From: an uncultured Syntrophobacterales bacterium
GTDB taxonomy: Bacteria > Desulfobacterota > Syntrophia > Syntrophales > UBA5619
Assembly: GCA_903928915.1 (NCBI GenBank)
Contig: CAIYSL010000098.1
Coordinates: 1-35,178 of the forward strand
Direction of reading: 5' to 3'
DNA: 35,178 nt
Both the position numbers and the translations under genes were made by a program. This document shows positions 6,244 through 34,724 of the stretch, piece after piece; position 1 is the stretch's first letter; each line of letters begins with the position of its first letter. The notes under the pieces were generated by a model. The model saw only the letters and a program-made list of their open reading frames with translations. It was not told the origin of the DNA and searched no databases.

Positions 6244-6298
6244 TGGTTCACCCCGCCTGCCCGCGGGGGCGGGTCATCCCGGCCGCAGCACTATTCCC

Positions 6299-6327
6299 TT
6301 GACAGGGAAGGTCCCTTTCCTTATCGT
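6299..6327 (+). promoter_or_regulatory. candidate sigma-70 promoter of the aldo/keto reductase gene
   Basis: TTGACA (6299-6304), a 17-base spacer and TATCGT (6322-6327, four of six) lie about 85 bases before the ATG at 6412. A GC-rich inverted repeat just upstream (CCCGCC ... GGGCGGG, within about 6252-6273) may end the preceding transcript. Confidence 0.5.
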
Positions 6328-6411
6328 CGGTCCACGGCACGAGCTGCGCGTCATTCGAACCGCCGTGCGCCGGCGCAGGACGGGCGCCGCACCAGGAACA
6401 GGAGAGAGCGT

Positions 6412-7236: not shown

Positions 7237-7262
7237 GGGAGGCCGAAGGCCCCGGAGGGAAA

Positions 7263-7298
7263 CGGCCCGGCGCAGCTGAACCGCCGGGCCGGGGCTTT
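7263..7298 (+). terminator. probable intrinsic terminator after the aldo/keto reductase
   Basis: A perfect 10-bp stem (CGGCCCGGCG 7263-7272 with CGCCGGGCCG 7282-7291, 9-base loop) is followed by GGGCTTT. The stem is very stable but the T tract is only three bases, so this may be a weak or Rho-assisted terminator. Confidence 0.5.
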
Positions 7299-7323
7299 AG
7301 TCGATTCCGGTACCGGAACGCAG

Positions 7324-8928: not shown

Positions 8929-9001
8929 AGGCCCGGACGGACGAGCGAAGGCTGCGCGGTGGGCTGAGCGAAGGACGGCGGCCTGCGCAAGAGGAGGATG
9001 G

Positions 9002-9769: not shown

Positions 9770-9871
9770 CCGGGGGGCAGGGTCGTCCGCGCCGGGATCC
9801 GCCCGAGGACGGCTGCGGCCGGCCAGGGCAACCGTTCCCCGGGGCGGAAGACACCGCGTGAACCCCGGTGC

Positions 9872-9885
9872 CCCCGCCGGCGGGG
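9872..9885. repeat. 14-bp perfect palindrome between convergent genes
   Basis: CCCCGCCGGCGGGG lies in the 170-bp gap between the convergent SDR and Bug genes. It could help terminate transcripts from both sides, but there is no T tract on either strand. Confidence 0.35.
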
Positions 9886-9939
9886 TACGGATCCTTCCTG
9901 TCTCTGACGACGCGTCTCCGGTCGGGGTCGCCGTCCGGG

Positions 9940-10995: not shown

Positions 10996-11326
10996 GGCGT
11001 TCTCCTCTCTGTATGCGGCCATCCTCGACTCAGGAACAACACAAACGCGGTGCCCGTGAAAACCATGACTGCCGGTGACGGGGGTATTCCTTTCACAATT
11101 TCGACGATTCGTCAAACAGCGATTCATCCCGGCCGGGCCGATCCGGTGCCGGCCGGGCGGCGTCCGTTCGGGCGGCAACCTTGCAGCTGGAAATTTATCG
11201 CAGGAATGGCTATAGAGGGATACCGACCCGTCGGCCGCAGCGGGCGGGGTTCGCGGTCAGCAAAACGGTGGACGGGTATGGGGTCGCAGTGGCGACAGGG
11301 GGAGTGGAGGACCGGATCGGCACGCC
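10996..11326. other. 331-bp divergent intergenic region
   Basis: The region separates the Bug gene (minus) from the O-antigen-ligase-like gene (plus) and contains no credible gene. It has a small dyad GACGA-T-TCGTC (11103-11113) overlapping a minus-strand TTGACG, and a candidate plus-strand promoter near 11188-11216. The rest is GC-rich sequence in which I see no structure. Confidence 0.5.
11188..11216 (+). promoter_or_regulatory. candidate promoter of the O-antigen-ligase-like gene
   Basis: TGGAAA (11188-11193), 17 bases, TATAGA (11211-11216). Each box matches four of six consensus bases. It is the most AT-rich spot of this gap, about 110 bases before the ATG at 11327. Confidence 0.35.
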
Positions 11327-14300: not shown

Positions 14301-14599
14301 GCACGGCCCTCGACCTGACGCCCGATCTTGCCGAGGCCTATGACAAGCTCGCATACCTGTTCTCTGTGCAGGGGAATTTCCCGGAGGCGATCGCCGCCCA
14401 CCGGCATGTGCTCCGGATCATGCCCCACGACGCGGGGATCTGGAAGACGCACCGGAACCTGGCGATCCTGTACCGGAAGACCGGCGATCACCGCGCGGCG
14501 CGGGCGCATGCCGAACAGGCCTTGGCCCGGGCGCCCGCCAGCGGCAGGCAGGAGCTGGAGGCCCTGGCCGCGGAGGTCGGCGCACCGGCCCGGCGATAA
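11327..14599 (+). CDS. O-antigen ligase/polymerase-like membrane protein with C-terminal TPR domain
   Basis: A 1090-residue protein. The first 780 residues hold many hydrophobic segments, starting near residue 20. A Wzy_C/O-antigen-ligase-like region lies around 230-420, including the signature DRSHNELWDTLVSTGLIG with H395. A low-complexity Pro/Ala-rich cytoplasmic or periplasmic loop follows near 545-600, then more membrane segments to about residue 780. From about 789 to the end there are tetratricopeptide repeats (DQAIAHFHRAAALWP, AEASFRTALDLTPDLAEAYDKLA, EAIAAHRHVLRIMPHDAGIWK, ARAHAEQALARAP). Fusions of this kind are found in surface-glycan polymerases or ligases and in protein O-oligosaccharyltransferase relatives. 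The TPR part probably docks partner proteins. No glycan-synthesis genes are adjacent. A weak ribosome site precedes the ATG. Confidence 0.82.
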   Translation: MGDDGRDSRLESFCTALMEAGWLIAAVVVPVFFNVYTGRIFEPDKIALLRSIAVLMACAWLIRLVERGGSGRQYLSGRLGNPVFLSAAAVAAVSLIATAASVNPGHSFFGSYRRMQGAYTTLCGVVVFAIIFLEMRTRRQADRLFTAIILGSLPVALYGILQRLGMDPLTWSTDPFTRSFFEADRAPSTMGNPIFTGAYLAVVSLLTIGRVAADLGGMRSARGSLPAIIRVCGFGLAALVQVVALASSASRGPWVGWLAGVSFFVFILVILSQRRRLIAGFVTAGVLGIAALLALNLGGGPLAKIRALPLLGPISHLLESERGTGKTRTLIWEGTVRLVLPHQPIRYPDGSEDPVNTLRPLIGYGPEAMPLVYGQFYPPELGHHEHRSLLIDRSHNELWDTLVSTGLIGLLAWQALLLSLFRFGLRCIGLLSAGRDGKALVWLWTGAGIAGGLVPLLLHRPGYFALGAALGTVAGMILSLLLAAGPGLRREQTSRSNGEDRVLIASLLAAILANYVEVQFGISVIASQSLFWLAAGLLVAIGPGGLRAEEDLPPADAPAPLRAAALPAGRPGKRKPPSLRLPPAGSAGPRDPALRRVIGAGLGYSLMIALILAALLFAFLSNHARLEDPLAVLWQSLRAPSRQGFPAALCLVVAVWALSCLIAAGELFRCGRLKSAADRGIALCLLSASSLGIALSFALPLAVRLRDLATSPAVEPLRLSEGIIGMYDFFVFALAAAVFLTGLTLRYCRQAPPRTVRNPWVLLPVLPLVLGGGYAAISHANLDPIRADILLREGGIHQARNRLDQAIAHFHRAAALWPSDVCAAKLGGALAARAQAAAPDSGGRPGAEMKLSRAMRLDPQGMRDMKQSELFSAAGDLLLYARTLNPLYADHSYNLARLYRRWTSLTTAAAEKTRLAEQTSAFYRQATVISPQNVVLWNEWASFLLDEQNDNGARQKIERSLALDPRFGPTHLVAGSISLKRQQWAAAEASFRTALDLTPDLAEAYDKLAYLFSVQGNFPEAIAAHRHVLRIMPHDAGIWKTHRNLAILYRKTGDHRAARAHAEQALARAPASGRQELEALAAEVGAPARR

Positions 14600-18623: not shown

Positions 18624-19328
18624 ATGGACGGTAACCCGATGATTGAACTGAAGAACGCCAGCAAGACATACCGGCGGGGCGCCCAGGCAGTGCATGCCCT
18701 GCGCGACGTTTCTCTCGGCATCCGCAGGGGCGAATTTCTGTCCGTGATGGGGGCCAGCGGTTCGGGCAAGAGCACACTCCTGAACCTCATCGGCGGTCTG
18801 GACCAGCCGTCATCCGGAGAGGTGTTCATCGAAGGCCGACCGCTCCACGGCATTTCCGATCACGAATTGACCCTGATCAGGCGGCGGCACATCGGGTTCA
18901 TCTTTCAGTTCTTCAACCTTCTGCCGATCCTCACCGCTGCGGAGAACGTGGCACTGCCCCTGCTGCTGGAAGGCATCCCCTACGCGGAGGTGAAGCCGAA
19001 GGCAGTGGAACTGCTGCGACGGGTGGGGCTGGGGCCCCGCACGGAACACCGGCCGGAGGAGCTCTCGGGCGGGGAGATGCAGCGCGTGGCCATCGCGCGC
19101 GCGCTCATCGCCGAGCCCGCCGTTCTGCTCGCGGACGAACCCACGGGCAACCTCGATTCGCACACCAGCGAAGAAATCTTCGCGCTGCTCAGAACCCTAC
19201 ACGACCGCGGCCAGACCATCGTCATGGTGACGCACGATCACCGCGCCGCAGCCTACGGCTCGCGCATTATCACCCTCAAGGACGGCGCCCTGGCGGGCGA
19301 TATCTCCACCGGGGGTGAGGCGGCATGA
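18624..19328 (+). CDS. ABC transporter ATP-binding protein (LolD/MacB type)
   Basis: A 234-residue ATPase with every ABC motif: Walker [10 protein letters not shown] (43-51), Q-loop Q95, signature LSGGE (147-151), Walker B LLADEP (168-173) and switch histidine H204. Close spacing and the sequence around [18 protein letters not shown] place it in the LolD/MacB/FtsE group, which drives mechanotransmission rather than simple import. The ATG at 18624 is preferred for its AAGG box; MIELKN at 18639 is an alternative. Its stop overlaps the permease start (ATGA), and together they begin a four-gene operon continuing to 24106. A lipid or lipoprotein cargo is suggested by the LolA-like gene that follows. 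Confidence 0.92.
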
Positions 19329-21916
19329 CGTTCACCGGCCTGCTCCGTCGCGTCAGTCTGCAGCATGTCACCCGCCAGAAGCTCCGGACTGCGGTGGCAC
19401 TGTTCGGCGTCGCCCTCGGCGTCGCCTCCCTGACCTCCATCGATATCGTGAGCGTCAGCGTGGTCCGGTCGCTGGGAGATTCGATCAACCGCATCACCGG
19501 CCGGGCAGTGCTCCAGATCACGGGAGCGGCGGCGGGCTTCCCGGAAGCCCTGCTCGAGCAGGTGCAGAACCTCCCCGGCGTCGAGTACGCCGTTCCGGTG
19601 ATCGAGACCGACGCGAACCTGGCTGCGGGCAGTGAACGCCCGTTCATCGTCCTGGGCGTCGATGTCCTGCAGGACGGCAATATCCGCGACTACCACGTGA
19701 CCCACGAGCGTGCCGACATCCCCGACACCCTGCTGTTCCTGGCAAAGCCCGACTCCATCCTGCTGACGCGAGAAATGGCCGAGCGCGAGGGCATCGCCGT
19801 CGACCAGCGGATCCGCGTCCAAACCGTACGGGGCATCGGGACATTCACCGTGCGCGGCCTGCTCGAACCCGACGGCCCGGCAAAGGCCCTCGGCGGCGAT
19901 ATCGCGATCATGGACGTCTATGCGGCACAGCTGGCCTTCGGCAAGGAGGGGCGGATCGACCGCATCGACGTCAGCATCGTCCGCGGCGAGACCCTCGACT
20001 CCGTCAAAGGCCGCATCCAGGACTCGCTGCCGCAGGGATACGCCATCGATACCCCGGCGGGCAGGACCCGGCAGATCGAAAACCTCACCGACCGCTTCCA
20101 GAAGAGCATGAATCTGATCAGTTTCCTGGCGCTGCTCGTGGGCATGTACCTGATCTATAACGCCGTGTCCATCTCGGTGGTCCAGCGGAGAGGCGAGATC
20201 GGCATCCTGCGCGCACTCGGGGCAACGCGGGGCCAGATCTTGCGGCTGTTCCTCGCCGAGACCGCGGTGATCGCCCTGCTCGCCTCGGTCGTCGGCGTCG
20301 GGCTCGGCATCGGCCTCGCCAAGCTGTCGATCGGCGCCGTGGTACAGGCCGCATCGTCCCTGTACGGGCGGTCGCAGGTTACGGAACTGGGGTTCTCCGC
20401 GTTCAGCCTGCTCGGGTATGTCGGCATCGGGGTGATGGCGAGCATCGGCGCCGCGTATCTGCCCGCGCGATCAACGGCCCGCATTGCGCCGGTTTCCGCG
20501 ATCCGCTCCCAGCCCTACGCCGCGGACGGAGCGGCCCGGAACCGTGCGCTCACGCTGCTGGCGGCCTCGCTGATCGCGCTGGCCGGGGTGATCGTCACGC
20601 TCTACATAACCGCAGGTCCCGCCTCGCCGCTCAGGAACACCACGATCACGACGCTCGCCGAGGTCTGCCTGCTGCTCGGCATCTCCTGTGCCACCCCCCT
20701 GATCCTCAAAGGGTTCATTGCCGCCTACCGGTCGCTCATCGCGCCACACTGCGGGGCCGGCGGCAGACTCGCCGGCCTGAACCTCGAGAAGAACCTGCTG
20801 CGCAACTCCGTCGCCGTCGCGGCCGTGTTTCTCAGCATCGCCCTTGCGGTCAGTACGGCCAGCATGGGCAACAGCGCGCGCAGCGGCCTGCTGGACTACC
20901 TCGGCACCGTGGAGCGGAGCGACATTCTCGTCACCTCCGGCCATCCGCTTGCCACCCCCGCCGCCCGGACAATACCGATGCCGCTTTCGCTGGCGCGGGA
21001 ACTCGAAGCGGTCCCCGGCGTTGCCTCGGCGGACCCGTACCGCAAGCTGTTCCTGGACGTTGCCGGCAGACGCATCCTGCTCGAGGCGCTCGACATCTCC
21101 CGCTGGAGCCGCCACAACGCCTGGACGGTTGTGGAAGGCCGCTTGCCCGATCTGCTCCGGGCGATGGCCGAGGGGAACGCGATCGCGGTCAACGAGATCG
21201 TCGCGTCGCGCCTGGCGTTGAAGCCCGGGGACCGCATCACGCTCCCCACCCCTGCCGGTCCGGCAGCCTTTCCGGTCGCGGGCGTCATCGTCAGCTACTC
21301 CTCCGACACCGGAGTCATCGCGATGGATATCCGCACCTACCGGCGCCACTGGCGGGACGACGTCGCCGACATGTTCTCGATCTCCCTCACGCCCGGCAGC
21401 AGTCTGCGGGCAGTGCGCGCCGCGATCCAGGACCGCTTCCGGAGCGAGCGAAGGCTGTTCGTCCTGCCCACGCGGGAGTTCCGTGAGGAGATCAGGAAGC
21501 TGTTCGACCGTTCGTTCGTGATGAACAACGCCGCGAACCTGCTCTCCCTGCTGATCGCCGGCTTCGGCATCATCGTGACCTTGCTGGCGAGCGTTCTCGA
21601 ACGCAGGCGCGAGATCGGCATCCTCCGCTCCCTCGGCATGACCAGGCGCCAGGTCTCCGGCATCGTGCTTATGGAATCGGCGCTGCTGGGCGCTGCGGGC
21701 GGCATCCTCGGCGCCGCGGCCGGCGTGGTCGCCGGCTGGATCAGCCTGGAGGGATTCTTCCGGCTCGCCTTCGGGAGCAGCATGACCTATCATATCGATG
21801 GCTGGACGCTGCTGGGGCCGCTGCTGATGGCCGTCGTCCTGTCGATGCTCGCCGGCCTGTATCCCGCCTGGCGGGCGGCAACAACCACCATCACCGAGAC
21901 GCTGGCCTATGAATGA
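19325..21916 (+). CDS. ABC transporter permease with two FtsX domains
   Basis: An 863-residue inner-membrane protein with duplicated type-VII ABC permease architecture. A first membrane helix lies near residue 25-45, followed by a periplasmic domain. The first FtsX core starts near 262 (YNAVSISVVQRRGEIGILRALGATRGQ), then come further helices and a second large periplasmic domain. The second FtsX core runs from about 733 (SVLERRREIGILRSLGMTRRQV) to the C-terminus. The repeated motif R-R-G/R-E-I-G-I-L-R-x-L-G marks the contact with the ATPase. Duplication in one chain means one copy, or a simple homodimer, could form the complex, unlike the LolC/LolE heterodimer. It overlaps the ATPase upstream by 4 nt and the LolA-like gene downstream by 8 nt. 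Confidence 0.9.
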   Translation: MTFTGLLRRVSLQHVTRQKLRTAVALFGVALGVASLTSIDIVSVSVVRSLGDSINRITGRAVLQITGAAAGFPEALLEQVQNLPGVEYAVPVIETDANLAAGSERPFIVLGVDVLQDGNIRDYHVTHERADIPDTLLFLAKPDSILLTREMAEREGIAVDQRIRVQTVRGIGTFTVRGLLEPDGPAKALGGDIAIMDVYAAQLAFGKEGRIDRIDVSIVRGETLDSVKGRIQDSLPQGYAIDTPAGRTRQIENLTDRFQKSMNLISFLALLVGMYLIYNAVSISVVQRRGEIGILRALGATRGQILRLFLAETAVIALLASVVGVGLGIGLAKLSIGAVVQAASSLYGRSQVTELGFSAFSLLGYVGIGVMASIGAAYLPARSTARIAPVSAIRSQPYAADGAARNRALTLLAASLIALAGVIVTLYITAGPASPLRNTTITTLAEVCLLLGISCATPLILKGFIAAYRSLIAPHCGAGGRLAGLNLEKNLLRNSVAVAAVFLSIALAVSTASMGNSARSGLLDYLGTVERSDILVTSGHPLATPAARTIPMPLSLARELEAVPGVASADPYRKLFLDVAGRRILLEALDISRWSRHNAWTVVEGRLPDLLRAMAEGNAIAVNEIVASRLALKPGDRITLPTPAGPAAFPVAGVIVSYSSDTGVIAMDIRTYRRHWRDDVADMFSISLTPGSSLRAVRAAIQDRFRSERRLFVLPTREFREEIRKLFDRSFVMNNAANLLSLLIAGFGIIVTLLASVLERRREIGILRSLGMTRRQVSGIVLMESALLGAAGGILGAAAGVVAGWISLEGFFRLAFGSSMTYHIDGWTLLGPLLMAVVLSMLAGLYPAWRAATTTITETLAYE

Positions 21917-22700
21917 CCTTCGACTGTCCGTGCTTTCCCATACCCTCTGCGCTCTGCTCTGCACCCTGTACGCAGTCTCTCCGGCGCAAGCCCTTTCCGG
22001 CCGCGAGGTGTACGAGCGGGTCCACGAGGTCCGTGCCCGCTCCCTCGACCGGCAGACGGAAGCGACGATGGTGCTGTTCGACCGGGGCGGCGGCAAGCGC
22101 ACGCGGACATTGCGTGAATACAGCAAGAAAGCGGATCCGGAGGCGTACAAGGTCCTCATCGTGTTCCAGTCGCCGCCGGACCTGAAGAACGTCGGGCTCC
22201 TGATCCATGCCCGCACCTTTTCGGACCGTGCCCTCTGGGCCTACTTTCCCGAGTACAAGCGCGTGCGGCGCATTGCGACGACTGCGCAGGACGATCCCTT
22301 CTTCGGGTCGGATTTTTCCTTCGACGACTTCGGCGGCCCGCCGAACCTCGACGACTATGCGTTCAGCGTCGAGCGGGAAGAGGTGATCGACGGCAGGGTA
22401 TGCTCCGTCGTCGCGGTGACGCCGAACGTCCGCCGGAAATACACGAAATACCTGGCCTGGGTCGCAAAAGACCTCTGGATCCAGCTGAAGGTCGAGTACT
22501 ACCGGGACCGGGAGGTCTATCGCACGGGGGCGTTCAGGGACGTGCGGATGGTTGACGGCATCCCGACCCCCTTCCGGGCGGAGATGGTAAACAGCAAGAG
22601 CGGTCACCGGACCGAGCTCACGATCGAACGCATCCGGTACCGTACGCGCTTCCCCGATGATCTTTTCACGCAGCAGTCATTGGAGCGTGCCGGGAGATGA
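21909..22700 (+). CDS. LolA-like outer-membrane lipoprotein-sorting family protein
   Basis: A 263-residue periplasmic protein with a signal peptide cleaved after residue 28 (VSPAQA). The mature part resembles the LolA-like family usually annotated 'outer membrane lipoprotein-sorting protein': GREVYERVHEVRARSLDRQTEATMVLFDRGG, SPPDLKNVGLLIH, ALWAYFPEYKRVRRI and FGSDFSFDDF, with beta-strands that make a half-barrel with a hydrophobic pocket. Such proteins carry lipids or lipoproteins across the periplasm. Several relatives sit beside RND transporters and DUF1302-like barrels. Here the energy source is an FtsX-type ABC pair. It overlaps the permease by 8 nt and the next gene by 4 nt, so the four products are probably made in fixed proportion. 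Confidence 0.85.
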   Translation: MNDLRLSVLSHTLCALLCTLYAVSPAQALSGREVYERVHEVRARSLDRQTEATMVLFDRGGGKRTRTLREYSKKADPEAYKVLIVFQSPPDLKNVGLLIHARTFSDRALWAYFPEYKRVRRIATTAQDDPFFGSDFSFDDFGGPPNLDDYAFSVEREEVIDGRVCSVVAVTPNVRRKYTKYLAWVAKDLWIQLKVEYYRDREVYRTGAFRDVRMVDGIPTPFRAEMVNSKSGHRTELTIERIRYRTRFPDDLFTQQSLERAGR

Positions 22701-24106
22701 ACCGAGCGCACCCGGGAAATGGCGGCACGCGGATGAGCCGGCATACCGGCCGACTGCTCGTATTTCTGCTGCTGGGGATGCTGAGCGCGTCCTCCACCTT
22801 TGCGGACGACTCCCTGACCTCCTCCGGGCAGCTTCGACTGCGCGGGGTGGATGCGCGGTACGACGACAGCGTGCAGGAACCCCCGAGCCTAACCGGACGG
22901 CTCGTGCTCGACGCGATCGGTTCGGCATGGCGGTTCCACTCCTGGATCGAAGGGGGATGGGACGGAACGGCGCACGACCCGGCGCAGCACAGCTCGCTGT
23001 TGAAGAGCTTCAACAAGGTATACCAGAACAATTCCCCCTTCCTCGAATTCAAGGAGCTGGCCCTCTCCCATACCGCGGGGAATCTCGACCTGCGGATGGG
23101 CATCCAGCGCTTTGCCTGGGGCAGGCTCGACGAGTATCCGCCGAACGACCTGCTGAACCCCTGGGACTACACCCGGTTCCTGGTAAAGCCGATCGAGGAC
23201 CGCAAGATCGGCGTGCCGTCCCTTGCCGCAACGCTGCGGGGGAGCGACTGGTCCTACGACGCCGTCTGGATCCCCTTTCTGGTGCCCTACCGGTTTCCCG
23301 TGCCCGCTGAACGCTGGTTCGGCCGATCGGCCGCCTCGGCGCTTTCCCGCTCCCCCACCGTGGAGTTCACGCCACGCGAACCGGACTTGCCGCCGCGAAC
23401 GATTGCCAACGGCAATATCGCGCTCCGGGCGCGGCATACCGGAGACATCGACTGGGCGGTCAGCCTGTACCACGGGTACGACCCGAGGCCGGTGTTCAAG
23501 ACCACGACCTTCGTGGTAACCCAGCATGCCGGCAGAACGGTGATCGATCCGGGATACGTACCGGACTTTCACAAGATCACCGCGCTCGGAGTGGACGGTG
23601 CGGGGATCCTGGGGGACCTGAGCATCCGGGCGGAAGCGGTGTACATCGCCAACCGCCACTTCAACATCCGCGAGGAGCTCTGGGGGTATCCGCTGTTTCC
23701 CCGGTCCGGCAGCTATTCGCTCAATCCCATCGGCGCGGCGAGCGGTTCGCTCGACTACGGCGTCGGCGCCGACTACCGGCTGTTCGAAGAGGCCCTGCTG
23801 ACCGTGCAGCTGCAGCAGACCTTCATCCTGGACAGGCCGGAGACGCTGTACGCGCGGCAGCGGGAAACCGTCCTCTGGGCGCATCTCCGGGTCGGCCTGC
23901 TGAACCAGAAGGTAGAGACGACCGTCGGGTTCGCCTACAACCCCGAGCACGGCGACAGCATGGCAAAGGCGAATGTGTGGTACCTGTTCAGCGATGCGTG
24001 GAAAGCCGGGCTTTCCGGGGTAACCTTCACCGGACCTTCCCAATCGATCTTCGGGAGGTATGCAAAGAACGACGAACTCGGAGCGGAGCTGGTGTATTCC
24101 TGGTAG
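22697..24106 (+). CDS. outer-membrane beta-barrel protein (DUF1302-like)
   Basis: A 469-residue protein with a signal peptide (RLLVFLLLGMLSASSTFA) and alternating beta-strands typical of a barrel. It ends in aromatic VYSW, as BAM substrates do. The block MGIQRFAWGRLDEYPPNDLLNPWDY (about residues 134-158) matches the conserved G-Q-x-x-W-G-x-x-D ... D-x-x-N-P pattern of DUF1302-like outer-membrane proteins. It ends the ABC-permease-LolA-like operon and most likely receives or exports the cargo at the outer membrane. The ATG at 22697 overlaps the previous stop. The ATG at 22733 would give a shorter, more typical signal peptide and may be the true start. Confidence 0.78.
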   Translation: MNRAHPGNGGTRMSRHTGRLLVFLLLGMLSASSTFADDSLTSSGQLRLRGVDARYDDSVQEPPSLTGRLVLDAIGSAWRFHSWIEGGWDGTAHDPAQHSSLLKSFNKVYQNNSPFLEFKELALSHTAGNLDLRMGIQRFAWGRLDEYPPNDLLNPWDYTRFLVKPIEDRKIGVPSLAATLRGSDWSYDAVWIPFLVPYRFPVPAERWFGRSAASALSRSPTVEFTPREPDLPPRTIANGNIALRARHTGDIDWAVSLYHGYDPRPVFKTTTFVVTQHAGRTVIDPGYVPDFHKITALGVDGAGILGDLSIRAEAVYIANRHFNIREELWGYPLFPRSGSYSLNPIGAASGSLDYGVGADYRLFEEALLTVQLQQTFILDRPETLYARQRETVLWAHLRVGLLNQKVETTVGFAYNPEHGDSMAKANVWYLFSDAWKAGLSGVTFTGPSQSIFGRYAKNDELGAELVYSW

Positions 24107-24132: not shown

Positions 24133-24987
24133 TCAGGTGACGCTCGATGGTCGAGGCGACATAACGGGTTGAACGCGCCGATGGTAAACCGCCCTGAAGA
24201 CCCAAAATGGTCCAAGCACGATCAGGGACAGTGCAACAGGCACCACACTGTCGAGGTGGATATAACAGGCGGCGAAACATACGAACGTGAGAGAGACGGC
24301 GACTGCGATGAAGATCATGTCCCACGGATCATCGGTCGTACGCCTATCGGGGCTTAATGGTTTCTCTGCACTCAAGTAGAGACAGGAAATGATCAGCCCC
24401 ACCAAGAACCAGGCACCGAAATTACCCCAGGGCGTTCCATAATATCCGCCCTGTTCCTGCCACGACCAGAGCCCGCCATGAGTCCCCAGGGGGTCGATGA
24501 ACAGGTCCGTCGCTGTGATATGCAGGGCGCATAACCCCCCTTTGAACAGTATCCGGGTCAGCGGGCGGGAATTCCCCTGTTCAGCCGCGACTGGCTGCAG
24601 GAACTTCAGAGCCGTATAGGCCAGAATGAACCACATCAGGACGACGATGATCGGCACCCCTCCCGGAAGTGTGGGGGATAGCGCCGGGCTGTAGCGGTAG
24701 AGGTTCCCCAGGAACCCGGACCACCGCAAGCCCACGTACTCGGCCGCGTAGGAAAACAGGAAGGCGATGCCGAACAACCGCAGGGCATTGGCCGTTGACA
24801 GGGTCAACACGGCATGCAATAAGAACGCCGCCGCGAGAAAGAAGATCACCGCCCGCAGTTCCCCGTTCATCTCCGTCCAGGCAAAGGGCAGGGGCTTCAG
24901 GAAGGGGACGGAAAACGCAACAACCAGCAGGCAACAGGCGCAAAAGAAAAATTGTACCCAGCGGCGGAAAATCTTGCTAAGGTTCAT
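24133..24987 (-). CDS. carotenoid biosynthesis protein, CruF/DUF422 family hydratase
   Basis: A 284-residue polytopic membrane protein with about seven hydrophobic segments. The family signature is seen in SYAAEYVGLRWSGFLGNLYRY (79-99) and in the acidic/aromatic run TDLFIDPLGTHGG-WSWQ-GGYYGTPWGNFGAW (160-193), which matches CruF-type gamma-carotene 1'-hydroxylase/bisanhydrobacterioruberin hydratases. These add water to psi-end double bonds of acyclic carotenoids. No phytoene synthase, desaturase or cyclase gene is in the window, so the substrate would come from elsewhere in the genome or be a different isoprenoid lipid. It converges with the outer-membrane barrel gene, 26 bases away. A GGAAAAACC stretch precedes the ATG. 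Confidence 0.8.
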   Translation of the reverse strand: MNLSKIFRRWVQFFFCACCLLVVAFSVPFLKPLPFAWTEMNGELRAVIFFLAAAFLLHAVLTLSTANALRLFGIAFLFSYAAEYVGLRWSGFLGNLYRYSPALSPTLPGGVPIIVVLMWFILAYTALKFLQPVAAEQGNSRPLTRILFKGGLCALHITATDLFIDPLGTHGGLWSWQEQGGYYGTPWGNFGAWFLVGLIISCLYLSAEKPLSPDRRTTDDPWDMIFIAVAVSLTFVCFAACYIHLDSVVPVALSLIVLGPFWVFRAVYHRRVQPVMSPRPSSVT

Positions 24988-25076: not shown

Positions 25077-25163
25077 CGGGTGAGCACAGCACGGCCGGAC
25101 CAACGATCCGCTGCGGCCCGATGGACACGGGGGCCACGGCCGTTCACCGTGCCGAGGTGATTG

Positions 25164-26168
25164 ATGAATAACGTCCTGATTACCGGCGCCACCGGTTTCA
25201 TCGGCAGACACCTGGTTGCGGCCGCCGTGAAGAACAGCATCGGCGTCCGCGCCCTGGTCAGACCGGGAAACCCGGCGATACCCGCGCTGAAGCGAAGCGG
25301 CGTGGAGGTGATGACCGGCGACGTGATGGATTACCACTGCCTGCGCGCTGCCGCCGAGGGGGTGGATACGATATTCCATCTCGCCGCCACGGTAACCGAC
25401 TGGGCTCCGAAAACGGCCTACGCGGTAAACACCGCGGGAACGGATAACGCGTGCAGAGCGGGCGTCGCCGCCCGGGTGCGCCGCTTCGTGCTGGTGAGCA
25501 CCAACGACGTTTTCGGACGCGGAGAGGACCGGATCATCGACGAGTCGTGCCCGCTCGGCGCATATCACGAGCCCTATCCGGACACGAAGCGGGACGCCAC
25601 GCGGAGCTGCTGGGAGTACCACCGCAGGTTCGCTCTCCCCGTGACGATGGCCTTCCCCTGCTGGGTATACGGCGCGGGCGATACCTCGTTCGTGCCGCCG
25701 CTCGCCGATGCCATTTACCGCCGGCGCATGCTTTTCTGGCGGAGATGCGCCCTGCTCTGGCCGACATACATCGACAATCTCATCGACCTGCTCATGCGCA
25801 TCGCCGAGGACGGCAGGGCCGTGGGAAACGGATATCTGGTCCACGACGGCGAGGCGACGACGCTCCAGGAGTTCTGCGCGCAGATCGCCGAGGCGCTCGG
25901 GGTTCCGCCTGCAACCGCGCACATACCCTATCCGGCTGCGTATGCTGGCGCGCTGCTGCTGGAGCTCCTCTGGGGGGTGCGGCGCAAAGAAACCAGACCG
26001 CCGCTGACTACCTATGCCGTCAAGAACCTCGGCTCACGGCTCCGGTTCTCGATCGGGAAGGCGGAACGGGAGCTCGGCTGGAGACCGCGCATACCGCACC
26101 CGGAAGGAATGAAGCGCACGATGGAATGGCTGAAGAATGCCGATAGCGCCGCCCTGAAAACCAAGTAG
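25164..26168 (+). CDS. NAD(P)-dependent epimerase/dehydratase-type extended SDR
   Basis: A 334-residue extended short-chain dehydrogenase. The Rossmann motif G8-ATG-FIG14 opens the protein. FHLAATV (71-77), the substrate Ser/Thr pair S112-T113 (VLVSTNDVFG) and the catalytic Y138-PDT-K142 are in place. The C-terminal half (VYGAGDTSFVPPLADAIYRRR, YIDNLIDLL) resembles 3-beta-hydroxysteroid-dehydrogenase/ketoreductase relatives more than sugar epimerases. The neighbours are lipid genes, so reduction of a ketone on a lipid chain (3-oxo-sphinganine or ceramide, as for CerR of Caulobacter) is a reasonable guess; sequence alone does not prove it. The start is the ATG at 25164, a few bases after GAGGTGA. 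It leads an operon with the DegV- and FakA-like genes (52 bases, then an 11-nt overlap). Confidence 0.85.
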   Translation: MNNVLITGATGFIGRHLVAAAVKNSIGVRALVRPGNPAIPALKRSGVEVMTGDVMDYHCLRAAAEGVDTIFHLAATVTDWAPKTAYAVNTAGTDNACRAGVAARVRRFVLVSTNDVFGRGEDRIIDESCPLGAYHEPYPDTKRDATRSCWEYHRRFALPVTMAFPCWVYGAGDTSFVPPLADAIYRRRMLFWRRCALLWPTYIDNLIDLLMRIAEDGRAVGNGYLVHDGEATTLQEFCAQIAEALGVPPATAHIPYPAAYAGALLLELLWGVRRKETRPPLTTYAVKNLGSRLRFSIGKAERELGWRPRIPHPEGMKRTMEWLKNADSAALKTK

Positions 26169-26220
26169 CCGGCCCCCCCGGGGGAGCGACAGGAAAGAGG
26201 CAGTGCTGAAGGGGAGAGAA

Positions 26221-27117
26221 ATGGTCCTGGTCGCCAGTTCGGTATTGCAGCTGAGCAGTGAACGAATCAGAGAGCTGAACATCCGGGTGGTCGAGTACCC
26301 CCTGTTCGTCAACGGGGAGCCCTATCCTGCCTCGATCCACATGTCCTGGGCGGACAAGCAGGCGCTACGGGAGATCATCAAGGAACAGCGCAACCGGGTC
26401 ACGACGGCGGGGCTGGGCCATGCGGAGCTGGTTCAGGCGTATCATTCCGCACCCCCGGGCAGAGTCGTTCACATGGAACAGTCCCTCACGGTGACCAGCG
26501 CCTCCGCGGAAATGATGAACCAGGTCGCGCGGGAGTACCCGCGCCTCGACCTCGTCCAGTTCGATACCCGCGCCATTGCCGCCGCATACTCCATCCAGGT
26601 GCTCGAGGCCGCCCGGGCCGTGCACAGGGGAATTGCGGACGATGCCTTGCTCGAATTCATTTCCACGAACCGCAGAAACACCGGACACCTCGGGGTGATC
26701 TACGACCTCTCGTTCCTGCACCGCTCCGGGAAGATCGGTTTCGCAAAGGCCCTGCTCGGTACCGCGTTTAACGTCATTCCCCTGCTGGGATCTTCGGGCG
26801 AACCGGGCAGGCTTACGTCCGTCGGGAGGGCGAAAACCGCCGTCCAGGCCAACAGCCTATTTCTGCGCCGGATCGCAGAGGAGATGAAGGCGAGACAGGG
26901 AAAGCGGATTTCTGCGCTGATCGCCTATTGCGGCGATCACGAAAAGGAGGCCCTGCACATGAAGGAGCTGCTCCAAGACATGCGGTGGGAGACAGGGCTC
27001 GCTGGCCGGCCTGTATCCGGGGCGGCGACTGTCGAGGTTCACTACACGAATCACAGCGCCATCCCCCACCAGGGGCCGGATTTTTATGACATCGGATATG
27101 TGATCTATGCAGACTGA
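26221..27117 (+). CDS. DegV family protein (FakB-like fatty-acid-binding subunit)
   Basis: A 298-residue DegV-fold protein. These proteins hold a fatty acid in a deep tunnel and, as FakB, present it to the kinase FakA. Recognisable blocks are the N-terminal strand VLVASSVLQLS, VEYPLFVNGE, the VTTAGLGHAE loop in place of the usual T-S-Q-P-S, the SLTVTSASAEMM region, and the late YDLSFLHRSGKIG followed by GRLTSVGRAKTAV. Several of the loops that bind the carboxylate are diverged from FakB of Firmicutes, so ligand preference may differ. The ATG at 26221 has a GGGGAGAG box; a GTG at 26203 would add six residues. It overlaps the FakA-like gene by 11 nt, which strongly supports a working pair. Confidence 0.82.
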   Translation: MVLVASSVLQLSSERIRELNIRVVEYPLFVNGEPYPASIHMSWADKQALREIIKEQRNRVTTAGLGHAELVQAYHSAPPGRVVHMEQSLTVTSASAEMMNQVAREYPRLDLVQFDTRAIAAAYSIQVLEAARAVHRGIADDALLEFISTNRRNTGHLGVIYDLSFLHRSGKIGFAKALLGTAFNVIPLLGSSGEPGRLTSVGRAKTAVQANSLFLRRIAEEMKARQGKRISALIAYCGDHEKEALHMKELLQDMRWETGLAGRPVSGAATVEVHYTNHSAIPHQGPDFYDIGYVIYAD

Positions 27118-28705
27118 CTCCCTCGGCTGCGGCGAACTCAAAGTTCTGCTGCTCTCGGCGTTCGCCTACCTGGAAAAGAATTGCCGCATCCTGGACAACC
27201 TGAATGTGTTTCCCGTGCCCGATGGCGATACCGGGGTAAACATGGTCTCGACCCTCAAATCGGGCATTGCGTCGATCGAACGGGCGGGCCATTCCTCGAT
27301 CGCAGCCCTTTTGGCGGATTTGGACAGACAGTGCACCGCCAACAGCAGAGGCAATTCGGGATTCATCCTGGCCCGCTTTTTCCACGGGTTTGCCGAATCG
27401 ATCGGAGCGCACTCCGCCATAACGGCGGCGGTCATCACCCGGGCCTTTGCGAACGGCGCATATCTGGCCAAGACCTCCCTGTACGCGCCCCGAGAGGGGA
27501 CCATGATTACGATCATCGCCGCGGTCGTTGCGGGGATGTCGGCCACCGCATCTCCGGACATCCTGCCCGTCTTGCAGCGAGGTCTCGCCGCGGCGCGGGA
27601 ACGGCTGAAGGAAACGCCGAAGCTGCTTCCGGCCCTGGCACGGGCGGGCGTTGTCGACTCCGGGGCGCTGGGCTTCATCTTTCTCCTGGAAGGGATGGTG
27701 CGGGGCCTCGGTGGCCGGGACGACCGTCAGGAGCGGGAGTTCGACTACCGGTTTCCGCCCGACCCCGCGATGCCCGATGGCGCCGTAGCCGCTGTTGCGT
27801 ACCGGTACTGCACGGAACTGACGGCGGTATGCGGCTCCTCCCCCCCCGTGCCTGCACTGCAATCCTTCCTGGCAGAGCGGGGCGACAGTATCGCGGTCCT
27901 GGTGGACGCGGGGCTGATCAAGGTTCACGTCCACACCGATACCCCCGACGATATCATCGCGGAAATGGAGAAATTCGGCCCCCTGGTAAGAACGAAAATC
28001 GAGGACATGCGGGAACAGACGGCCCGGACGCTCAAAGCGATGAGCCGGCACAGGGATGCAACGGTACTGGCCATCATCCCCGGGGCGGGGTTTGCGGCGA
28101 TCTACCGGGAATTCGGGGTGCACCATTTCCTGACCTACGCGGACACTCTTCCCTCCTGTGCGGAAATCCTGACTGCGCTGGCGAGAATCGATTCCGAGAG
28201 GATCATCGTCCTTCCCAACGAACGCACCCTGCTGCCGGCGGTCATGCTGGCCAGGGACCAGACGGAGAAAGAAATCACCATTCTGCCCACGCAGAACGTC
28301 ATCCAGGGCATTACCGCCCTGTACGGCTTCAGCGACGGGGATTCTCCGGATGCCAACATCCGGAACATGGCCGCTGCGCTCGAATACGCCGTCTGCGTCA
28401 CCCTATCCCGCGGTTTTCGAGACGCACCGTCCGGGAATGCAGCCATAACGGAAAACGGCTACATTGCCGCTGCCGGGGATGATATCCTCTCCGCCTCCGC
28501 CGACCTCGCCGACGCCTTTGCCGGCGCGCTCGAAAAAGTCGACCTTTCCGGCAAGGAGCGGATCACCCTGTACTACAATGAAGAGGTCAGCGGAGAGATG
28601 GTATCCCGGCTCACCGCCGTCGTGCAGGGCTTCGGTCAGGGGATACAGGTCGAGAGCTACTACGGCGGGCAGAAGAGGTTCCTCCTGATCGTTTCGGTCG
28701 AGTAG
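27107..28705 (+). CDS. FakA-like fatty acid kinase (DAK2 domain, YloV family)
   Basis: A 532-residue kinase. The N-terminal DAK2 domain (about 10-200) contains the nucleotide/metal loop F-P-V-P-D-G-D-T-G with D39 and D41, equivalent to D38/D40 of Staphylococcus FakA, and the ANSRGNSGFILAR loop. A linker and a C-terminal DegV-like domain (from about 310; ATVLAIIPGAGFAAIYREF, NVIQGITALYGF) complete the YloV/FakA layout at the usual length. It would transfer phosphate from ATP to fatty acid bound by the FakB-like protein, giving acyl-phosphate. Acyl-phosphate is the donor for PlsY-type acyltransferases, and a PlsY homologue is encoded in convergence with a gap of one base. Translation is probably coupled to the preceding gene, since the ribosome site is poor. 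Confidence 0.85.
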   Translation: MQTDSLGCGELKVLLLSAFAYLEKNCRILDNLNVFPVPDGDTGVNMVSTLKSGIASIERAGHSSIAALLADLDRQCTANSRGNSGFILARFFHGFAESIGAHSAITAAVITRAFANGAYLAKTSLYAPREGTMITIIAAVVAGMSATASPDILPVLQRGLAAARERLKETPKLLPALARAGVVDSGALGFIFLLEGMVRGLGGRDDRQEREFDYRFPPDPAMPDGAVAAVAYRYCTELTAVCGSSPPVPALQSFLAERGDSIAVLVDAGLIKVHVHTDTPDDIIAEMEKFGPLVRTKIEDMREQTARTLKAMSRHRDATVLAIIPGAGFAAIYREFGVHHFLTYADTLPSCAEILTALARIDSERIIVLPNERTLLPAVMLARDQTEKEITILPTQNVIQGITALYGFSDGDSPDANIRNMAAALEYAVCVTLSRGFRDAPSGNAAITENGYIAAAGDDILSASADLADAFAGALEKVDLSGKERITLYYNEEVSGEMVSRLTAVVQGFGQGIQVESYYGGQKRFLLIVSVE

Positions 28706-28706
28706 T

Positions 28707-29489
28707 TCAATCATCTTCGCCCATACGGATGTCCCTGCCGGGGTTCCGGTACTGCGACTCGCGCGGGTACATTTCATACAATCCCCGCAACAGGATCGCC
28801 CTCCCGGGACCGATCCCCCGCCTCAGGTCCTCGCTCAGTCCGCATCCGTACAGCCGCCGCAGAAAATATAGGGCTGCCCAGACCCAGCTGTACCAGAACA
28901 GCGGCCAGGTGTCCGTGATCGCGGGCGGGAAGAGGTCCGAACATTTCCAGCCGAATCCCCCCCAGGGAACGTACAGGTCGAGCAGCCACAACAGGCCCTG
29001 GAGCGGGATGATGGCGATCATGATCAGATTTCCCCGCTTCAGCCGCTTATTGGCGTTCTGCGGGAATAGCGTCAGCAGGAGCAGGGTATGGACTGCGACC
29101 CAGAACCAGGGTCCGAAAAACAGCATCGCGCCCGAGGCGGTCGAAAGCCCCTTTCCGCCTTTGAAGTTGAGCCACACCGGGAAATCATGCCCGGCCTTGA
29201 CGAGTACCGTCAGGAACAGCAGTTGCCAGAGGTCGTCCCGGAAATTCCATCCCCCGAGGCCGTATGCCGCCAGCATGGCCGCCACGGGCTTTGCCATGTC
29301 GAGCACTGTTGCCAGGATGCCGGCCACCGGCCCTGCCGTGAGATAGGCATTGCTTCCGCCCACATGGCCCGTTCCCTCGTCCTTGAGTCTTTTCCCGGGG
29401 GCCAGCAGGCCGGTCAGCATCTGGGAAAAAGGGATGCTGCCGATCAGATAACTCGCCGCATAAAGGCCCAGGATATGCAATTGATCCAT
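28707..29489 (-). CDS. PlsY-family acyltransferase paralogue, divergent and C-terminally extended
   Basis: A 260-residue membrane protein of the acyl-phosphate:glycerol-3-phosphate acyltransferase family. Motif 1 is G17-S-I-P20. Motif 3 (G100-H-D-F-P and F-K-G-G-K-G-L-S-T, 109-117) is well kept. Motif 2, usually G-S-G-N-x-G-A-T-N, reads G-T-G-H-V-G-G-S-N (39-47), with N-to-H and A-T to G-S changes at the phosphate/acceptor site. The protein is about 50 residues longer than ordinary PlsY. The extra C-terminus (LYFLRRLYGCGLSEDLRRG onwards) is hydrophilic and basic/acidic. It starts 13 bases after the stop of the SPT-like gene, so the two are an operon. It may acylate something other than glycerol-3-phosphate. 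Whether another, canonical PlsY exists in the genome cannot be seen. Confidence 0.83.
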   Translation of the reverse strand: MDQLHILGLYAASYLIGSIPFSQMLTGLLAPGKRLKDEGTGHVGGSNAYLTAGPVAGILATVLDMAKPVAAMLAAYGLGGWNFRDDLWQLLFLTVLVKAGHDFPVWLNFKGGKGLSTASGAMLFFGPWFWVAVHTLLLLTLFPQNANKRLKRGNLIMIAIIPLQGLLWLLDLYVPWGGFGWKCSDLFPPAITDTWPLFWYSWVWAALYFLRRLYGCGLSEDLRRGIGPGRAILLRGLYEMYPRESQYRNPGRDIRMGEDD

Positions 29490-29502: not shown

Positions 29503-30690
29503 TCATCGCTCGATGATCCCCAGCAGCCTGCCGCACTTCGCGAAAGCGGCCAGAACGGCGTCGAGGTCCCGGTCGGTGTGGCCCGCACCGTAGCTCGTCC
29601 GGATCAGCGCCCGGTCCCGGGGGACGGCCGGGTAGATGACCGGCGTCGTGAAGATCCCTTCATCGCGGAGAAGTTTCCAGAGCAGGACGCTCATCTCGTC
29701 GCCGCCGATGTGGATCGGGATGATCGGCGTCCGGGAGGCGCCCGTGTCGTAGCCCATCGCCTGGTAACCCGTCCGCATCTTGGCCGTGACCTCCCAGAGG
29801 CGCCTGCGGAGTTCGGGCTGGCGCACGACGACCTCCAGGGCGGCCAGCACGGAGGCGACCGAAGCCGGCGTCGCCGCGGCGCTGAAGATCAGACTCCGGG
29901 CATGGTGCTTGATGTAGGAGATGACCTTCCGGTCGCCGGCGACGAAACCGCCGGTGGATGCGAAGGTCTTGCTGAAGGTGCCCATGATGAGATCGACCTC
30001 CCGTTCGAGGCCGAAGTGCTCGGCGGTGCCGCGGCCGTGCTCGCCGAGGACGCCGATCCCGTGGGCGTCGTCGACCATCAGCCGGGCGCCGTATTTCCTG
30101 GCCAGCGGCACGATGCCCGGCAGGTTTGCGATGTCGCCTTCCATGCTGAAGACGCCGTCGACGACGATCAGTTTGCCGGCGTCCGGGTTGAGCGAGGCGA
30201 GGACCCGTTCGAGGTCTTCCAGATCGTCATGGGCGAATTTGTGGACGTCGGCAAAGGCGAGGCGGCAGGCGTCGCTGATGGAGGCATGGACCAGCCGGTC
30301 GGCGATGACGGCGTCGCCCGCTCCGCAAAGCGCCGCGATGATGCCCAGATTCGCCTGCATCCCCGTGCTGAAGGTGAGCGCGGCCTCCCTCCGCAGGAAC
30401 CGCGCCAGCCGCTCCTCGAGTTCTTCGTGGAGGTCGATCGTGCCGGTCAGGAGCCGCGAGCCGCACGTCCCGGCCCCGTAACGGTCGATGGCCTTTGCGG
30501 CCGCTTCCTTCACCTGGGGGTGGTCGGCCAGCCCGAGGTAGTTGTTCGAACCGACCATGATCATCGACCGGCCCTTTACCGTAACCCGGTTCCCCCTGGC
30601 CTCCTGGATGGGGGTGAAGTAGGGATACAGGTCAGCCGCCTGATGCTCCTCTGCCCGGGTAAATTCCCCGCATTTGCCAAAAAGATCCAT
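29503..30690 (-). CDS. spt: alpha-oxoamine synthase, probable serine palmitoyltransferase
   Basis: A 395-residue PLP enzyme of the KBL/BioF/SPT family. Key residues: H135 (DRLVHAS) that stacks on PLP, D207 and H210 (MVDDAHGIG), and the Schiff-base lysine K241 in G-T-F-S-K. Several stretches look more like bacterial SPT, in particular the Bacteroidetes enzymes, than like KBL or BioF: YPYFTPI, GSNNYLGLADHP, YGAGTCGSRLLTGTIDLHEELE, VDGVFSMEGDIANLPGIV and ARSLIFSAAATPAS. SPT condenses serine with an acyl thioester to give 3-oxo-sphinganine, the first step of sphingolipid synthesis. The start at 30690 gives the usual length and follows GGAGG. BioF is less likely because no biotin genes are nearby, and KBL is less likely because no threonine dehydrogenase is adjacent. 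The PlsY-like gene follows in the same operon. Confidence 0.8.
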   Translation of the reverse strand: MDLFGKCGEFTRAEEHQAADLYPYFTPIQEARGNRVTVKGRSMIMVGSNNYLGLADHPQVKEAAAKAIDRYGAGTCGSRLLTGTIDLHEELEERLARFLRREAALTFSTGMQANLGIIAALCGAGDAVIADRLVHASISDACRLAFADVHKFAHDDLEDLERVLASLNPDAGKLIVVDGVFSMEGDIANLPGIVPLARKYGARLMVDDAHGIGVLGEHGRGTAEHFGLEREVDLIMGTFSKTFASTGGFVAGDRKVISYIKHHARSLIFSAAATPASVASVLAALEVVVRQPELRRRLWEVTAKMRTGYQAMGYDTGASRTPIIPIHIGGDEMSVLLWKLLRDEGIFTTPVIYPAVPRDRALIRTSYGAGHTDRDLDAVLAAFAKCGRLLGIIER

Positions 30691-32240: not shown

Positions 32241-34517
32241 CTACGCGCGGGTATCGACGAACTGATAGATTGCCGGCTGGGTACAGACTTCGTAGTATTT
32301 TCTCGCCGTCGGTCCGCTCACCTCCAGCGACACGGGATTGACCTTCAGAACGGGGGCTTCGCGGATCACGATCCGCTGATACGTTCCGCTCAACGTGGGC
32401 ACCTTCCCGGTATACAGGGTCACCTCTCCGTTCCCCTCCGCCGGATAGGCGATGCGGTTCAGGTTGATCTCGCGGGAGAGCTTGGCAAATCCCTCCGGGT
32501 CGAGCTCAATCCCGTTGACATTGTACCGCAGCGAAAGGTCGTCCGCCGTGGTCTGCAAATCTTCATCCCGGACATGCTGATACACGGAGAGATTGAACGG
32601 CCGCGCACCATTCCGGAAGCGCTTGCGCAGCCTCTTGTCACAGCTCGACAGCCGGTCCGCAAGGTTGATCGCGTGGGAAATCATGATCCGGGAATCCCCG
32701 TCGAACAGAAACGCCGGGGGGCTCGGCTTGTAACAGATGCCGATCCCCAGTTCGAGGGCCGGCAGGTCGTGCTTCAGGTTCTTCTCGTTGCAATGCTGCA
32801 CGATGTGCAGCATGCTGACCGCAAGTCCGCAGGCCCGGGCCACGCTGTACCAGCCCTGGGCGGTATCCTCGTTTTCGAAGATCGACAGGATGATCGCATC
32901 CCCCTCGATGAACACCTTGGACGCATTGTAGTCGCGGATGATCTCGGAGATCGGATCGAAGAAGTTGAGACTGAAATAGGAGGCGGGGTTGAGCCCCTTG
33001 GCCCTCATCGTGTGGGTGATATCCATCGAGCCGCGGATGTCCGCCTTGATGATGACGTGGCTGATGATGGGCTTTTCTTCCTTGCCCCGTTCCTCCGGGA
33101 GCAGGTACTCGTACAGCAGCCGGTTCTTCTTCGACAGCAGCAGCATCTTCTCATCGGTCACCAGGTTGACCGCGTCCATCGCCCGCCTCAGCAGCCGGCC
33201 GTTTTCCCGGTCCCGGTGATACCGGAGAAAATCCTTGAGAAAGCTCAGCAGATGCTCCTGTTTTTTTCGCGTGGTGCAGCCCTTGACCCTGCGGATCGTT
33301 GCCTGGAGGTCGGCAAGGATGCTGCCGTCGAGCTTCCGGCGCTTCAGTTCACGGGCCAGGGATCTTCTCGCTTTTCGCTTTACCAGATACTCCCGGACCT
33401 GCACCGGCCGAAGCGGGGGGCAGCAGCTGCGGTACACGGCCTTCATTTCATATGCCGCCGTGATCGGTTTCAGCAGTCCGGATTTCTTGAATCGCCGGTA
33501 ACACAGGGCCAGCATCCGTTCCTGGATCCTGATCCGCGCTCTCAATTCATGCAGGGCCGCTTTCGCTTCCTTCCCCTGTTTCGCCTTCCGGTACCGCTCG
33601 CGCGTATCAAAACAGTTGAACATCAGGTCGATGTTTTCGCTCTCCATCAGCCAGTGATCCGTCCGGTCCCCGGCGGAGGCGGGGCCCTCTTCCCCCGGTT
33701 CCACCGCTTCCTTCTGTTCGCCCCCGCGGCCCTCCCGTGCCAAACCGGTCTTTGCCACGATTGCATCGATGATCGCTTTGAGGCAGGAGAAATTATCGGG
33801 TTCATCCGCGCGCCGGCCAATGAGCACGTACGCCTCCATCAGGAGAAAATCGTCCGTAACGTCATCGACGTGGAGCGTCGGGTTGATGAAGAAGCCGTCC
33901 GGCAGTATGTACTCGGCGGGGAAATTCGACTCGCGGATATCCCTCAAATTCCTGGCCTGGACATCGGCCAGCACGTGGAACAGCTCTTCGCCCGCCAGCC
34001 GGACGATGCGCCGCCGGCTCTGCTTGATTTCGGCCAGTTTCTCCTTCGCGCGCAGCCATTCCATCTGGTCGTAATTCCGCGACAATTCAGATGCCCGGAC
34101 GAGGGCTTCCAGCGATGCGACGGCCTTCCGGTATTCGTTTCGGACCTCCTCGAGAACGAGCTTCGCCAGCGCGGCCTGCCCGAGGAAATCGATCTGCACC
34201 TCGGATTCTGACTTGGCCCGGTGTATCCCGTCCCGCAGGGCCTCGGTGCACACCTGCCGCAGGGCGATCCGTTCATGTTCCCGGGGCTCCTTCTTCCCCT
34301 CCTCGAAGAAGCCTTCCAGGCGGCCGTGCCTGATCATCGCTGCGGCCGCGGCGCGCTTTACGGCGGTGCGGACCTGCGGACTGATATGGACGTCGATATG
34401 AATTCCGTCCACGCCGAAGGCCAGCCTGCCGAGGGAAAGATTGACCAGGTACCGTTTCAGGGGAAGCTGTCCGAGGTCTGGGGCTTTTGAAAACAAACCG
34501 AGAAAACCGATCATCAT
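32241..34517 (-). CDS. large soluble protein with class III nucleotide-cyclase-like domain
   Basis: A 758-residue protein with no signal peptide or obvious membrane helix. Residues about 1-480 are helical and charged, with no family I recognise (for example QMEWLRAKEKLAEIKQSRRR and many Lys/Arg-rich helices). A class III adenylate/guanylate cyclase homology domain covers about 485-650. The two metal-binding aspartates appear as D493 (IKADIRGSMD) and D540 (FIEGDAIILSIFE). The N-x-x-x-R element of the active site is kept in AINLADRL. A GIGI strand follows the usual order, but the flexible substrate loop differs (CYKPSPPAFLFDG). About 100 further residues follow to the C-terminus. It could make a cyclic nucleotide or act as a degenerate sensor. 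The ATG at 34517 lies five bases after GAGGA. Confidence 0.7.
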   Translation of the reverse strand: MMIGFLGLFSKAPDLGQLPLKRYLVNLSLGRLAFGVDGIHIDVHISPQVRTAVKRAAAAAMIRHGRLEGFFEEGKKEPREHERIALRQVCTEALRDGIHRAKSESEVQIDFLGQAALAKLVLEEVRNEYRKAVASLEALVRASELSRNYDQMEWLRAKEKLAEIKQSRRRIVRLAGEELFHVLADVQARNLRDIRESNFPAEYILPDGFFINPTLHVDDVTDDFLLMEAYVLIGRRADEPDNFSCLKAIIDAIVAKTGLAREGRGGEQKEAVEPGEEGPASAGDRTDHWLMESENIDLMFNCFDTRERYRKAKQGKEAKAALHELRARIRIQERMLALCYRRFKKSGLLKPITAAYEMKAVYRSCCPPLRPVQVREYLVKRKARRSLARELKRRKLDGSILADLQATIRRVKGCTTRKKQEHLLSFLKDFLRYHRDRENGRLLRRAMDAVNLVTDEKMLLLSKKNRLLYEYLLPEERGKEEKPIISHVIIKADIRGSMDITHTMRAKGLNPASYFSLNFFDPISEIIRDYNASKVFIEGDAIILSIFENEDTAQGWYSVARACGLAVSMLHIVQHCNEKNLKHDLPALELGIGICYKPSPPAFLFDGDSRIMISHAINLADRLSSCDKRLRKRFRNGARPFNLSVYQHVRDEDLQTTADDLSLRYNVNGIELDPEGFAKLSREINLNRIAYPAEGNGEVTLYTGKVPTLSGTYQRIVIREAPVLKVNPVSLEVSGPTARKYYEVCTQPAIYQFVDTRA

Positions 34518-34724
34518 TTCATTCCTCGCCGCGCCCGCACCCGCGGCCAATAAATCGGTCAAGGAACGATAAGTATTTGTATTTGCGTGGTATGATGAGA
34601 ATAAGGGAAGGCCGCCGCTATGTCAAGGAGATTTTCATGCCGCTGCGGGCAGACAGGGTGCAACGGCCCGGTGGCGGGGCGGGCAGCCCTTCCGGTCACG
34701 GCACCGCACCGGCGCCGCGGTCCC

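Follow-up and report, generated by a model that had tools for sequence, protein, structure and literature searches.

Genes at the locus

The window analysed here (35,178 nucleotides, from an uncultured Syntrophobacterales bacterium) contains genes for a serine palmitoyltransferase (SPT)-like protein, a PlsY paralogue designated PlsY2, and a FakA/FakB pair, all within 5.5 kb (Table 1). Across the whole genome, there are only two PlsYs and two FakAs, and a single SPT at the threshold used. On the plus strand, the epimerase-family gene is followed by fakB after a 34-nt gap, and fakB overlaps fakA by 11 nt. This row converges on the PlsY2 gene, with a single base between the stop codons. The epimerase-family gene lies 2.5 kb from PlsY2. 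Together with the adjoining SPT gene, this means that PlsY2 is encoded with an SPT and a candidate reductase, as expected for the role of a ceramide synthase.

Table 1. Positions of the PlsY2 gene, its altered motif, and the neighboring lipid genes in the window.
Feature	Position	Strand	Basis
PlsY2 (PlsY paralogue)	28707..29489	-	260 aa; PF02660, 5xj5, AlphaFold vs 5xj7, residue mapping
Codons of GTGHVGGSNAYL, PlsY2 residues 39-50	29340..29375	-	Ser35>Thr, Asn37>His, Thr41>Ser, Arg45>Leu (Aquifex numbering); alignment of 31 homologues
Serine-palmitoyltransferase-like alpha-oxoamine synthase	29503..30690	-	13 nt upstream of PlsY2; PDB 8guh E 2.1e-117
FakA-like fatty acid kinase catalytic subunit (Dak2 + middle + C-terminal domains)	27107..28705	+	PF13684, PF02734, PF21645; TIGR03599 above cut-off; 7w7h E 2.8e-65
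DegV/FakB-like fatty acid binding subunit	26203..27117	+	PF02645 E 1.4e-25; 4x9x (DegV-domain) E 1.3e-7; FakB1 6mh9 E 6.4e-7
NAD-dependent epimerase-family reductase, candidate 3-keto reductase (CerR-like)	25161..26168	+	PF01370 E 2e-28; 28% identity to Rubrobacter cluster epimerase

The start of the SPT-like protein was set at MDLF on the basis of its relatives, which begin with MDLF or MDIF; the open frame itself extends to 30894. The protein was nearer to characterized SPT than to KBL, BioF, ALAS, or cysteate acyltransferase. Its E value was 2.1e-117 for 8guh, a serine palmitoyltransferase, as compared with 1.5e-93 for 8s1y (named BioF/KBL) and 2.8e-75 for a cysteate acyltransferase. Against the NCBIfam equivalog NF047600, it scored 492 bits, which is below the cut-off of 640. 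FakA retained the Mg/nucleotide residues Asn32, Asp38, Asp40, and Asn82, as well as the catalytic Cys240, His282, and His284 (NVFPVPDGDTG, RGNSG, YCTEL, KVHVHT), as established for the Staphylococcus enzyme (PMC9136124). The FakB-like protein is divergent, and its matches are more distant than those of FakA.

We rejected the possibility that the contig is a foreign contaminant. A gene flanking the island is 68–70% identical to its counterparts in the genus and family of this genome, and therefore the 250-kb contig fits the genome. Elsewhere in the window, an ABC ATPase, an ABC permease, a LolA-like protein, and an outer-membrane-type protein are encoded in a row at 18636–24106 (+), just upstream of the epimerase operon; they may form an exporter for the lipid product of the locus. 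A membrane protein of the CruF/carotenoid-hydratase family (PF04240) at 24133–24987 (-) scored well under the CruF equivalog cut-offs. The 773-residue protein at 32241–34562 (-) had no Pfam or NCBIfam match and is 54–70% identical in three relatives, making it conserved but uncharacterized. The frame at 328–1359 (-) resembles an IS-type transposase, as judged by eye.

PlsY2 and the PlsY family

The PlsY2 gene is real and intact, with an ATG start and a reading frame uninterrupted by internal stops. Its product matched the PF02660 profile with 87.5 bits (E 1.4e-24; curated cut-off 24.1), which places it in the family. Its score for the PlsY equivalog TIGR00023 was 73.6 bits, below the cut-off of 137.2. 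Aquifex PlsY (5xj5) was matched with an E value of 4.7e-12, and the identity to canonical PlsY members was 27–33%. An earlier note on this DNA had described an altered motif and about 50 additional residues, and both observations held. At the position of GSGNIGATNVxR in the phylum's canonical PlsYs, PlsY2 reads GTGHVGGSNAYL, and its 260 residues exceed the length of the 31 aligned homologues (189–215 aa) by 45–70.

The extra length resides in a segment of about residues 170–194, inserted ahead of the last helix, and in a tail at the C-terminus, beyond residue 216. Both segments had low confidence in the AlphaFold model, which was built from an alignment of 32 sequences and had a mean pLDDT of 77. 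Comparison of the model with 5xj7 yielded a Z score of 20.3 and an rmsd of 3.9 over 187 aligned residues, and the next unrelated chain had a Z score of 5.7. According to the model, the fold of PlsY2 is that of PlsY across the whole core.

Donor and acceptor sites

Residue numbering and roles were taken from the structure paper on Aquifex PlsY, and PlsY2 was aligned with the 31 homologues. In the Aquifex enzyme, acyl-phosphate contacts Thr41, His92, and the 104–107 loop. The phosphate of glycerol-3-phosphate is held by Ser35, Arg45, Lys104, and Asn180, and its 2-hydroxyl is contacted by Ser142 and His177 (PMC5700162). We found the donor site in PlsY2 as Ser46 (Thr41), His101 (His92), and Lys113-Gly114-Leu115-Ser116 (the Lys104–Ala107 loop). 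The T41S mutant of the Aquifex enzyme retains 45% activity (PMC5700162). The glycerol-3-phosphate clamp is lost: Ser35 is replaced by Thr40 and Arg45 by Leu50, Asn180 is absent, and Lys104 is kept. Asn37, the oxyanion residue, corresponds to His42. The C-terminal HxxN motif (His177, Asn180) is missing from PlsY2, and Arg211/Arg212 align near His177.

Ser35, Asn37, Arg45, Lys104, and HxxN were kept in all 31 homologues. With such agreement at positions 35, 37, 45, and HxxN, chance variation is not a reasonable explanation for the changes in PlsY2. The glycerol-3-phosphate pocket of PlsY has been termed 'invariable' (PMC5700162). The earlier note had regarded motifs 1 and 3 as kept. The motif 3 meant there must be GHDFPVWLNFKGGKG, which is indeed kept and which the structure paper numbers as motif 2 (PMC5700162). 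What that paper calls motif 3 (HRxNIxRL, 177–189) is absent from PlsY2, and the change is thus larger than the note had seen.

Mutagenesis of Aquifex PlsY indicates what these replacements may cost. Single mutants at the clamp positions lost 83–99% of the activity, with residual values relative to the wild type of 17% for S35T, 10% for N37H, 1% for R45A (Km increased 36-fold), 6.5% for H177A, and 4.6% for N180A (PMC5700162). In view of these single-mutant losses, PlsY2, with its combination of changes, is very probably unable to acylate glycerol-3-phosphate, and its donor site is left in place. The residue mapping (kept: His92, the Lys104–Gly105 loop, and a hydroxyl at 41; lost: the clamp) thus supports the previous suggestion of a retained acyl-phosphate site with a changed acceptor. 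A genome with no other PlsY, together with the same substitutions being common in proven glycerol-3-phosphate acyltransferases, would have argued against this suggestion. A second PlsY is present, and the substitutions at 35, 37, and 45 occurred in none of the 31 homologues. Judged from its sequence, the conclusion that PlsY2 no longer uses glycerol-3-phosphate is well supported.

Second PlsY and probable source of acyl-phosphate

The second PlsY of the genome, on contig C32, has an intact clamp and an Asn in place of His92. The same His92-to-Asn form was present in all ten aligned PlsY members from the order. The earlier note had proposed looking for a canonical plsY beside plsX. A PlsY with the clamp was found, albeit with Asn at position 92, and it does not lie beside plsX, which is absent from the genome. 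PlsX (PF02504) was detected in none of the 61 genomes of the order (the present genome and 60 relatives), and the same model was positive in 8 of 14 control genomes. With PlsX missing, FakAB stands out as the local source of acyl-phosphate. The surroundings of the second PlsY are themselves unusual (C32, locus L099, about 5673–14499): two ketoacyl synthase genes and one thioesterase gene accompany three genes of the radical SAM type, one of which encodes a B12 domain.

Long FakA-like proteins (about 570–670 aa) occur across the order (C139:16742–17524 of the present genome, L100; L094:11201–13036). In the relative G038, a FakA–DegV fusion lies about 3 kb from an SPT-like gene, and a B12 radical SAM gene and a thioesterase gene accompany them.

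SPT and ceramide-synthase-like genes in relatives

Within the order, the SPT orthologues closest to that of the locus were those of G035 (56% identity), G059 (54%), G009 (49%), and G019 (47%). In G035, G059, and G009, the SPT gene adjoins an SDR or epimerase-family gene. On a Rubrobacter plasmid, consecutive genes encode an SPT (54% identical to that of the locus), a GNAT protein, and an epimerase-family protein; such clustering of Spt, bCerS, and CerR is reported to be frequent (PMC11334938). The GNAT protein of this cluster served as our probe, and its assignment to ceramide synthase is by synteny and domain rather than by comparison with the Caulobacter protein. Homologues of the probe were found in 8 of the 61 genomes, namely G035, G059, G009, and five more, including G003 from the same genus. 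In G053, of the same order, the GNAT gene adjoins an epimerase-family gene.

Neither the single probe nor an eight-sequence profile (E up to 1) detected a GNAT-type ceramide synthase in the PlsY2 genome. A gap in the draft could explain this result, though the stated completeness is 100%. The GNAT gene was also lacking in several relatives whose SPT-like proteins are more distant, and for this reason, the absence in the PlsY2 genome is suggestive only. On this evidence, the genome has the backbone enzyme without the known N-acyltransferase.

Search for PlsY2 orthologues

No PlsY2 orthologue was found in 60 relatives, 155 genomes of the class, and 395 sampled genomes of the phylum. These contained only canonical or order-type PlsYs, the best of which were 37–41% identical over part of the protein. 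We scanned 84,980 species genomes twice, first with unremarkable PlsY2 peptides and then with an alignment in which an artificial second row weighted the altered motif. Neither scan returned relatives of PlsY2, although such narrow searches use few short peptide patterns, which distant relatives could escape. Plasmids gave only weak matches to ordinary PlsY. Relatives of FakA in the phylum had a FakB-like neighbor, with neither PlsY2 nor SPT nearby. PlsY2 is thus a singleton among the genomes searched, and its linkage to the SPT and FakAB genes is known from this locus only. Literature searches linking PlsY with sphingolipid or ceramide yielded nothing relevant.

Proposed role and alternatives

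With the above results in hand, we tentatively favor, at somewhat less than even confidence, a role for PlsY2 as a membrane acyltransferase that has kept the acyl-phosphate donor, accepts a sphingoid base, and replaces the ceramide synthase, with FakAB supplying the donor. FakB would present the fatty acid and FakA would phosphorylate it, and the resulting acyl-phosphate would bind in the conserved phosphate hole of PlsY2. The adjacent SPT would supply the acceptor, either as the 3-keto long-chain base or as sphinganine after reduction by the epimerase-family protein. The amino group of the long-chain base would then attack the acyl-phosphate carbonyl to give (keto)dihydroceramide, with which PlsY2 would stand in for the missing GNAT-type synthase. 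The epimerase-family protein may reduce the keto group before or after acylation; the order of these steps is debated for Caulobacter (PMC11087976). In PlsY, the donor phosphate itself is the proposed proton acceptor (PMC5700162), and hence the chemistry would need none of the lost residues as a base. A pocket for the long-chain base is hypothetical, and it is worth noting that the insert and the tail are the low-confidence parts of the model.

The same gene context would suit acylation of a hydroxyl rather than an amine, for example one on the long-chain base itself, on ceramide, or on the head group of another lipid. This would agree with the O-acylation chemistry of PlsY, but it leaves the genome without a recognized N-acyltransferase for the long-chain base, and we regard it as rather unlikely. 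PlsY2 could also pass the acyl group from acyl-phosphate to ACP or CoA, making the thioester for SPT and replacing either PlsX run backwards or the acyl-ACP synthetase AasR of Caulobacter. The missing plsX fits such a transfer, which we nevertheless consider unlikely. Thiol acceptors are, to our knowledge, not known for the PlsY fold, and no acyl carrier protein gene was recognized in the island. Caulobacter does activate fatty acids for SPT through AasR and AcpR, but the Bacteroidetes-type SPTs, which are the closest to the present one, use acyl-CoA (PMC11324152).

The remaining explanations dispense with a new acceptor. PlsY2 might still make lysophosphatidic acid through a rearranged phosphate site, as its family membership and the two arginines at the mapped position of His177 would allow. 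The near-complete loss in Arg45Ala (~1% activity) and the values below 7% for all tested His177 and Asn180 substitutions (PMC5700162) render this improbable, as does the second PlsY with an intact clamp in the same genome. Finally, a singleton that has lost several family-invariant residues could be a decaying or inactive copy in a coincidental neighborhood. This we consider quite improbable: the open frame is intact, the losses affect the acceptor site with the donor site kept, and the gene sits among SPT and FakA/FakB genes that have few copies genome-wide.

Significance and comparison with known systems

If the ceramide assignment is correct, PlsY2 may represent an undescribed bacterial route to finish ceramide. 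A ceramide synthase with the PlsY fold, dependent on acyl-phosphate from a dedicated fatty acid kinase, could then possibly constitute a third independent route of ceramide N-acylation, besides eukaryotic CerS and the bacterial GNAT bCerS; we hold this view with similar caution. Acyl-phosphate is a known phospholipid intermediate, and with a PlsY that serves a different acceptor, its chemistry would reach a new class of lipids. We know of no earlier PlsY that uses any acceptor besides glycerol phosphate, and PlsY2 would be the first. In a Black Sea survey, many genomes had SPT-like genes and no co-localized ceramide synthase, and a non-homologous replacement was suggested (PMC11334938). The PlsY2 locus offers a concrete candidate for such a replacement.

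PlsY2 shares with Aquifex PlsY (5xj5–5xj9) the seven-helix fold, the phosphate hole (His92, Lys104, GGKG loop), and the hydroxyl at position 41. It differs in the loss of Ser35, Asn37, Arg45, Asn180, and His177, and in having the insert before the last helix and the C-terminal tail. The proposed function, addition of the second acyl chain onto the SPT product, would be that of Caulobacter bCerS (CC_1154), which acts with Spt and CerR, and the PlsY2 gene likewise has an SPT gene and one for an epimerase-family reductase nearby. Unlike the GNAT-type bCerS, a peripheral GNAT-domain protein, PlsY2 is a PF02660 integral membrane protein of an unrelated family, and its donor would be acyl-phosphate. 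As with FakA/FakB of Staphylococcus and Enterococcus, acyl-phosphate would be made for an enzyme of the PlsY family, and at the PlsY2 locus, the genes are adjacent. The Firmicutes have plsX, and their Fak system feeds a PlsY that acylates glycerol-3-phosphate, whereas the PlsY2 genome is without plsX and the acceptor site of PlsY2 is lost.
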